Positions 161 to 1,530 of a stretch of DNA of 26,970 nt are shown here, in pieces. The stretch's first letter is position 1. Each line of letters starts with the position of its first letter. The position numbers and the translations under genes were made by a program. The notes beneath the pieces were generated by a model, which made no database searches, was not told the DNA's origin, and worked only from the letters and a program-made list of their open reading frames with translations. The stretch covers positions 1-26,970 of the IMG/VR virus record IMGVR_UViG_3300029882_000082. One strand, 5' to 3'. The DNA comes from a virus.

Positions 161-325
161 TCAGGCGGCGAGCAGCGCGGCCAGAAGATCACGGATGATG
201 CTGACAGCGATTTCGCCGTCGCAGAGCAGACTATCCAGTCCTTCCCCGGCCTCATCGCATGCGTCCAGCAGTTCGCTAATTTCGCTTGCCGTGTAACCGG
301 CGTAAGTTGGCTCTGAATCGCCCAT
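161..325 (-). CDS. Small acidic phage protein, 54 aa
   Basis: I chose the ATG at 325 because GGAGAAG sits 5 nt upstream; an in-frame longer reading to 382 would run into the GC hairpin at 364-380 and lacks a ribosome site. The product (MGDSEPTYAGYTASEISELLDACDE and on) is acidic, predicted mostly helical, and ends in a hydrophobic Leu/Ala tail. I do not recognise the family. It is the first gene after the 780-nt structured RNA region, and its leader contains the perfect palindrome TACTAA-T-TTAGTA at 350-362. That palindrome could be a regulator site or the last part of the RNA. Confidence 0.6.
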   Translation of the reverse strand: MGDSEPTYAGYTASEISELLDACDEAGEGLDSLLCDGEIAVSIIRDLLAALLAA

Positions 326-349
326 AGTCTTCTCCAATGAGATTTGCAG

Positions 350-362
350 TACTAATTTAGTA
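350..362. promoter_or_regulatory. Perfect palindrome before the 54-aa gene
   Basis: TACTAA-T-TTAGTA is a 13-bp perfect palindrome, AT-rich in a GC-rich neighbourhood. It lies between the 3' hairpin of the RNA region (364-380) and the ribosome site of the 54-aa gene. It may be an operator or a processing or termination element. No function is shown. Confidence 0.35.
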
Positions 363-1140
363 AGCCGCCTAGCGGGCGGCATCCCCTATCACTATGGCCA
401 GATGGCCGGTCGTAGTGCCCCGTATCCAGGGGCGAGGAGTTCAGCAGTTGGGAGAGGTGGCAGTGTGCGACCTCCGTCCGCATGGACGGCGCTCTCTCGA
501 AGCGATTACGGGGCTACCTGATGGCTCCTGGACTAGCTAGGCCCATTCCACATCGTCACCCCTGCATCCCCTCGCCTACACGGGCCACCTCGTCAGGCAA
601 CCCCATTCAGAATCTGAGCTACACCTCACCCAACTGCTGTTCAGCTTTCATGGAATCGGGCCGGAGGTGAGTAACCCGGCTTGTGGGGCATTCCTAGCTT
701 CGGCCATCGCTGGCTGGCAGCGCACCGCCTATTACCTTCTCGCTCATACCGGCCCATACCCGGCACCCGGCCCGCAATCTCCGGACTTACTTCGGTACAC
801 CATCACCACTGGCGCATTCCGATTCCATGAAAACTGCTGCGCGTGAGGCCAGTCTGTATTCCCGGCCCCACGCCTTCCGATCCAGTCAGGCAGATCCTGT
901 CTCCCTGGCTAGGTCGGGCGCTCTCCTTGTTACGCGAGGAGTTGCTGTGTTCCGCGCCACTTTCGTGGAATGGCTGGCCATCGCGGGCCTGTTCGTGTGC
1001 GCCACATGCACGTACGTACTACTGCAAATTGTTATGCCACGTTCCGCCTACCCGGCTTTGCCGGAGCGACCACCGTTAGACGGCGGGTGATTCGGTGCTA
1101 TCTCGCACCGAGAAACCCGAAGGCTTCTCGCTGCGGACAA
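361..1140 (-). ncRNA. Candidate large structured phage RNA, about 780 nt
   Basis: This interval has no convincing gene but many complementary segments. Reading 5' to 3' on the minus strand: a multi-hairpin domain closed by 1133-1137/1043-1047, holding hairpins 1110-1129 (UUCG loop), 1093-1110, 1070-1086 and 1052-1064; a GAAA-loop hairpin at 957-968; a 10-bp hairpin 841-850/864-873; a continuous 18-bp long-range helix 819-836/642-659; adjacent to it a 17-bp helix 622-639/442-459 with one U.U; and hairpins at 572-600, 474-489, 417-433, 390-417 and 364-380. In the minus transcript the imperfect pairs 1115/1124, 1072/1084, 846/868, 833/645, 599/573 and 605/509 are G.U; on the plus strand the same pairs are A-C mismatches. 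This points to minus-strand RNA. The 5' end abuts the stop codon of the 129-aa gene, so it is probably part of the PL transcript. Size and style resemble the giant phage-associated RNAs GOLLD and ROOL, but I cannot claim homology. Confidence 0.7.
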
Positions 1141-1530
1141 CTAGATACGGGCGTAGCCTTCTTCGAATGCAGCTGCCGGCGAGTACGACTTGTAGCCGTC
1201 CGGATAGACCACGTAATAGCCGCCTTCGTGCGGAGCGTGCTTGGCAACGTACAGCGAGGGGACATGGAACTTCGCGTAGCCCTCCTCGTCCGGCGTGATC
1301 CATGCGCCGCCAGTCGTCTCGCGATCTTCAGCGACAGCCAGCGTCACGTCCAGTTCCAGCTTCGCGATCTTCAGCGCCCAGACTTCCTTGTGGCAGCGGT
1401 AGCGCGGCATCTCAGCCATCGCTTGAGACTCATCGCGTTGCGGCTCGGCGCGATCTCCAATGTCCGACATACGACCCATTCCGAGCGCCGTTGCATCGGA
1501 CGGGTTATTCGGCGGGGTTACGTAGCTCAT
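1141..1530 (-). CDS. Conserved phage early protein, 129 aa
   Basis: The ATG at 1530 has GGAGAG 4 nt upstream. The protein has a variable N-terminal third and a well-ordered C-terminal part beginning around YRCHKEVWALKIAKLE and ending with GGYYVVYPDGYKSYSPAAAFEEGY. This is a pattern I know from many phage proteins of unknown function, found alone or as a C-terminal module. It is second in the PL operon, 14 nt after the 84-aa gene. Its stop codon is directly followed by the structured RNA region. No enzyme motif is visible, and the function is unknown. Confidence 0.82.
   Translation of the reverse strand: MSYVTPPNNPSDATALGMGRMSDIGDRAEPQRDESQAMAEMPRYRCHKEVWALKIAKLELDVTLAVAEDRETTGGAWITPDEEGYAKFHVPSLYVAKHAPHEGGYYVVYPDGYKSYSPAAAFEEGYARI

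Follow-up and report, generated by a model that had tools for sequence, protein, structure and literature searches.

The window, that is the whole stretch of viral DNA analysed (26,970 nucleotides), carries near its left end two small leftward genes on the minus strand. One (1141-1533, phrog_11049) codes for a 130-aa protein of unknown function and ends at 1141; the other (161-325), with the ribosome-binding site GGAG, starts at 325 and codes for 54 aa. Between them lies a giant structured RNA (356-1140, minus strand) with its 5' end near 1140 and its 3' end near 356. An earlier note on this DNA had described at 361-1140 a structured RNA of about 780 nt without a convincing gene; the stretch proved real, its end being placed nearer 356. 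Only mechanical open reading frames are present and homologues retain the pairings instead of an open frame, so that coding in 356-1140 is unsupported. A relative of the 54-aa protein (86% identical) is encoded in contig L029, also directly 3' of a related RNA.

The fold of the minus strand has an energy of -365.8 kcal/mol as compared to -318 +/- 9 in shuffles (z -5.3), and z reached -6.6 for minus-strand positions 335-1145. The plus strand also folds better than its shuffled controls (-334.4 kcal/mol, z -5.4), and the choice of the RNA strand must therefore rest on other evidence. In none of these comparisons was a shuffle equally stable. The two long-range helices given in the earlier note were recovered exactly: an 18-bp helix of continuous pairs including one G.U (819-836 with 642-659, minus strand) and a second one of 17/18 pairs with a single mismatch (622-639 with 442-459, minus strand). 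In a scan of the window and 25 phage loci (about 280 kb, spans of 60-400 nt), the 18-bp helix was the sole uninterrupted helix exceeding 16 bp. No counterpart of the second long helix was found in the relatives. A candidate long-range closing helix, 342-354/1017-1029, was discarded as it is not conserved in L034, L042 or L217.

Two copies of AAACACCACGTTTA (1854-1867 and 1878-1891) lie upstream of the leftward genes, about 750 nt upstream of the RNA, and resemble repressor operators, which suggests that the RNA may be under repressor control and expressed on induction. Further along, a 31-nt string resembling a terminator hairpin (2164-2194) recurs at 97-100% identity in L029 and L030, contigs that have diverged elsewhere, and a Doc/Fic-like toxin gene (2218-2601) adjoins the repressor region. 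The Burkholderia host proposed earlier was not confirmed; among annotated phages, the window has DNA in common only with phages of Stenotrophomonas.

A recurrent module and its spread among phages

Relatives were reached by several routes. The upstream 130-aa protein has relatives in 25 viral contigs, none of which carries the RNA, and the covariance model of the central module described below (R1) found no match in the L002-L026 contigs scanned; at the DNA level, the window's RNA likewise had no match among annotated phages. A translated part of the RNA, used as query, led to contigs L030-L032. In these contigs and in L029, a near-invariant GCAGUUUUSAUGGAAUCGGAAUGCG makes up the 5' arm of the 18-bp helix, and scanning with this motif yielded ten contigs in all. 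A scan with the P2 part of the module then gave at least 120 contigs and, among the matches listed, nearly all had a matching P1 and most a P3. An exact GGUGA-type P3 pattern matched L041 only. The 3'-arm pattern GGAATCGGGCCGG retrieved the known members together with about 36 loci devoid of a recognisable 5' arm, which were judged to be chance matches. Positions 988-1110 of L063, with 13/16 motif letters, are possibly a far relative of the module.

The central module of the window (642-836, minus strand; model R1 at 830-648, 20.2 bits, E 2.1e-6) is built around the 18-bp helix, here termed P1, whose 5' strand (819-836) pairs with the closing strand P1' (642-659). Enclosed between these strands are hairpin P2 (798-814) with the loop GGUGA (807-803), a variable insert (681-797) and hairpin P3 (660-680) with the loop UCACC (670-666). 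Relatives follow the same plan, in the order P1, AAUGCG, P2, insert, P3 and P1', with inserts of 30-170 nt that cannot be aligned.

Among 43 non-redundant modules, all 9 pairs of helix P1 show two-sided changes; 102 cells are doubly changed as compared to 34 in shuffled controls, and 95% of cells are paired, falling to 31-52% when the partner is slid. G.U exceeds A.C by 16 to 5 on the presumed RNA strand. The loops of P2 and P3 are complementary and change together. They were compared directly, the automatic alignment (A6) being poor in the loops. Most modules carry GCUGAU/AUCAGC, while GGUGA/UCACC is found in the window, in L041 and in the second copy of L042, ACCGA/UCGGU in the second copy of L034 and UGAUGA/UCAUCA in phage FBPa47. 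In a complementarity matrix of the loops, P2 and P3 loops of the same type pair over 5-6 bp, whereas pairing between types is usually limited to 2-4 bp. Second copies of the module also differ in P1, with GGGAUGGG/CCCAUCCC and GGAAGG/CCUUCC in L034 and L036; the P1 of the second copy in L042 is GGGAUGGG/CCCAUCCC. The compensatory changes in P1 and in the kissing loops indicate that the fold of the module is under selection.

Model R1 detects the module in more than 130 phage loci, and one common variant is present in about 840 of 5426 complete E. coli genomes. With a second query, 241 phage records were matched, 24 of them over most of the query length. The search patterns favour sequence-conserved members and the calibration of R1 was short. 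None of the records inspected annotates the module as an RNA, and the module sequence had no match in the text of the published papers searched.

Several well-known phages are among the carriers. Phage P1 (L202) has three copies within a 932-nt stretch between tRNA-Thr and tciA (L202 3419-4350, corresponding to OP279344.1 65552-66483; fold z -6.3). Within this stretch, the modules alternate with hairpins that have extended acceptor-like stems and a T-arm (GAGGGUUCGAAUCCCUA). Phage D3 carries one module between tRNA-Met and tRNA-Gly, phage R656 also has the module, and the copy in ZCKp20p ends at tRNA-Arg. In Stenotrophomonas phage SOVA965 one module lies in 920 nt devoid of genes, which are followed by four tRNAs and an HNH gene. 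In Klebsiella phage KP6 one module is found in a stretch of about 3 kb that has no annotated gene and precedes a tRNA cluster (L204 2291-5318); this stretch is possibly a very long RNA. The HK620 module has the late promoter on one side and the terminator tQ on the other. In the late leader of HK620 (L203 3215-3600) a conserved stretch, GCGACUUUGCGG..UUUUUAGAAACUGACCACAAAGAUAAAUGCAAACGA, precedes the module; it is common to HK620, KP6, ZCKp20p, Bas78 and others, has compensatory pairs of its own and gave no Rfam match.

The neighbourhood of tRNA genes recurs beyond these examples. Fifteen of 144 modules have a tRNA at a distance of 200 nt or less, as compared to 3% of random positions, and all 17 modules at 500 nt or less from a tRNA are on the same strand as that tRNA; about 85% of modules have no tRNA nearby. 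An entire tRNA-Ser (anticodon GCU) is contained in the module insert of L188 (7011-7206), and T-arm hairpins were detected in 5/128 inserts as compared to 3/2086 control stretches. The loci behind these counts were all collected with a single pattern and do not amount to a census. The window has no tRNA and the insert of its module no T-arm.

Exchangeable domains of the giant RNA

On either side of the module, the window RNA has further conserved domains. The 5' domain (783-1143, minus strand) is homologous to L217 9202-9615 (nhmmer 5e-24) and partly to L034 and L038, as also seen in alignment A3. It contains the hairpin CCAC-GAAA-GUGG (957-968, minus strand), replaced in homologues by CCC-UUCG-GGG, CCC-GAAA-GGG or CCGC-GAGA-GCGG, and the hairpin CUCCU-CGCGUAACA-AGGAG (923-941, minus strand), with compensatory changes in 3/6 pairs and CCGCU../..AGCGG or UUCGCU../..AGCGAA in homologues. 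All cells of these two hairpins are paired in the window, L217, L034 and L038; five pairs are doubly changed, and only one of 500 shuffles was as good. The UUCG and GAAA loops singled out in the earlier note are thus present, and they are swapped among homologues. The 3' domain (364-433, minus strand) comprises three hairpins, GCCCC-UGGAUAC-GGGGC (417-433), GGCC-AUCU-GGCC (396-407) and GCCGCC-CGCUA-GGCGGC (364-380), and is conserved in L038, L041, L216, L217 and L218, the middle hairpin showing changes in relatives. A pattern derived from 417-433 matched L216, L217/L219 and L218 in addition to L038 and L041.

Homologous RNAs of about 700-1500 nt occur in other phage contigs, where whole domains have been exchanged; only about 10 of these giant homologues are distinct and they are mostly metagenomic. 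Pairwise comparison reveals blocks in differing orders and spacings between phages, and the folds exceed shuffles with z of -6.4 in L034, -5.3 in L042 and -2.9 in L217. L217 aligns with the first 360 nt and the last 150 nt of the window RNA and is devoid of the module, which identifies the module as an exchangeable domain of a larger RNA. In L034 and L042, the slot of the window's second long helix holds a second copy of the module. Averaged over 60 loci, the excess of structure around the module falls to background within about 240 nt, indicating that most modules lie outside giant RNAs and are small RNAs, giant forms such as that of the window being the exception and a minority.

Comparison between sequences establishes the pairings and the strand of the RNA, its kissing loops, the way in which domains are exchanged, the distribution of the module over many phages and, for a minority of modules, the linkage to tRNAs. 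With compensatory change in the 5' part and in the central module and conserved hairpins at the 3' end, the proposal of a giant structured RNA in the leftward operon was borne out, and we are highly confident that this folded RNA and its family exist.

Possible modes of action

The best explanation overall is that of a giant noncoding multi-domain RNA acting in trans, to which we give about an even chance as a whole. According to this model, a noncoding RNA of about 780 nt (1140-356, minus strand) would be co-transcribed with the small leftward genes, on infection or prophage induction, and would fold into a large multi-domain particle. The module would serve as a clamp, the long helix P1 being closed by the short hairpins P2 and P3 with their kissing loops, and the resulting rigid junction would display the variable insert between P2 and P3. 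By analogy with GOLLD and ROOL, the RNA may act as a stable structural RNA which scaffolds, shelters or mimics tRNA-like cargo, or possibly as a bait against tRNA-attacking host enzymes, the insert setting the specificity. Phage tRNAs help to evade tRNA-targeting defences (PMC10264068), and because of this a bait or cargo role would be the most economical guess, about evenly balanced against the cis-acting and small RNA alternatives.

The module could instead act in cis as a control element bound to its transcript, the giant form being several such elements in a row, through processive antitermination as with HK022 put or through protection or processing of the operon RNA. The modules of HK620 and HK629 are flanked by the late promoter and the lysis genes, that of HK620 being ahead of the annotated tQ; those of mEp460 and of E. 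coli prophages follow the repressor in the leftward operon, and the window RNA is itself within such an operon. However, the Bas78 module is antiparallel to the structural operon, the ZCKp20p module and its tRNA are opposite to their neighbours, the FBPa47 copy is directly followed by a terminator-like hairpin and a U run, and there are tandem copies and long variable inserts. We consider a cis-acting leader unlikely, albeit with an appreciable probability.

Rather less probable in our estimation is a base-pairing small RNA, in which the module would be processed from a longer transcript and the variable insert would provide the seed. This reading draws on the prophage sRNA STnc100, which has the architecture of the module and whose model scores 33.9 bits on the third module of phage P1; STnc100 is transcribed in EHEC, where it was confirmed by Northern blot (PMC5331693), and is linked to PasD (PMC13192938). 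Yet that score is below the 47-bit gathering cut-off, HK620, D3 and the giant relatives gave no match, and a folded RNA of 780 nt with conserved domains exceeds the needs of a seed.

That unrelated phages, HK620 and ZCKp20p, have the same insert, and that HNH or TnpB nucleases are found near several copies, could point to an RNA that is selfish, or inserted in the manner of homing elements, and that spreads together with tRNAs and HNH endonucleases at no gain to the phage; but no nuclease is consistently linked and the kissing loops and P1 are retained by compensatory change, making such mobile cargo improbable. Chance or DNA-level structure devoid of a functional RNA, for which the folding of both strands could be invoked, is contradicted by the covariation counts, by pairings conserved across more than 130 loci and by the strand bias of G.U pairs, and we regard it as very improbable.

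Comparison with known RNAs

Few noncoding RNAs of unknown function are as large as GOLLD and ROOL. The family of the window RNA, absent from Rfam and linked to tRNA clusters, would add to them a third, modular kind of giant phage RNA. GOLLD is encoded by phages and prophages, measures several hundred nt, is often located near tRNA islands, with tRNAs sometimes in its linker, and has kissing loops and one conserved and one variable half (PMC12286853). ROOL is a large phage-encoded RNA, also near tRNA islands, with pseudoknots and a variable linker (PMC12286853). The likeness in size and phage origin noted at the outset holds, and kissing loops and a variable linker that may contain tRNAs are further points of resemblance; a tRNA neighbourhood was seen for relatives of the module, whereas the window has no tRNA. 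In contrast, the conserved sequences of GOLLD are different and neither model recognises our RNAs: no Rfam family reaches its cut-off in the window, the GOLLD model (RF01998) has no match to E 10 in window positions 250-1250 and none to E 1 in L202, L203, L209, L211 and L217, the ROOL model has no match in the window or the relatives, and neither reaches its gathering score in the relatives. Of the two options left by the earlier note, a new family or a distant member of GOLLD or ROOL, the first fits and membership is unsupported: the RNA at most works like these two and was not filed with them. A homo-oligomeric nanocage is a further mark of GOLLD. As judged from sequence, the window RNA is best read as belonging to a new family of giant phage RNAs that is modular in build.

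Other candidates fared no better as identities. Phage T4 RNAs C and D invite comparison, being stable RNAs without an assigned role that are encoded within a tRNA cluster of the phage, and RNA C carries a T-arm-like hairpin, but R1 has no match to them. The C4 antisense RNA of phages P1/P7 was rejected, as none of the loci scanned gave a match at its cut-off. Proteo-phage-1 (RF03044) is absent from the window; in SOVA965 (L211 2495-2578) it scores 34.7 bits, below its cut-off of 42, within the gene-free stretch that also harbours the module and the tRNA cluster.

If the kissing-loop clamps form a superfamily, it was overlooked in the classic phages P1, HK620 and D3, and the presence of the module in these phages makes the function of a giant RNA testable in ordinary laboratory strains. 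We propose tentatively, as a possibility somewhat short of even, that such a superfamily extends from modules of 100 nt to giants exceeding 1 kb and acts as a scaffold with exchangeable tRNA or mimic cargo, STnc100 and PasD being offshoots. The STnc100 model (RF02076) has no match in the window or in nine other records including HK620, D3 and giant relatives, and STnc100 is a single RNA of about 206 nt, with no giant form in the literature searched. It is nevertheless the nearest known RNA and the only known family with the plan of the module: it is prophage-encoded, with a helix (cauGGUG/CACCaug), AAU, a hairpin, an insert, a C+G-rich hairpin and a closing helix, and its consensus (P1-AAU-P2-insert-P3-P1') could be aligned to the third module of phage P1, which is also matched by R1. 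The module family may also explain where the prophage sRNAs STnc100 and PasD came from.
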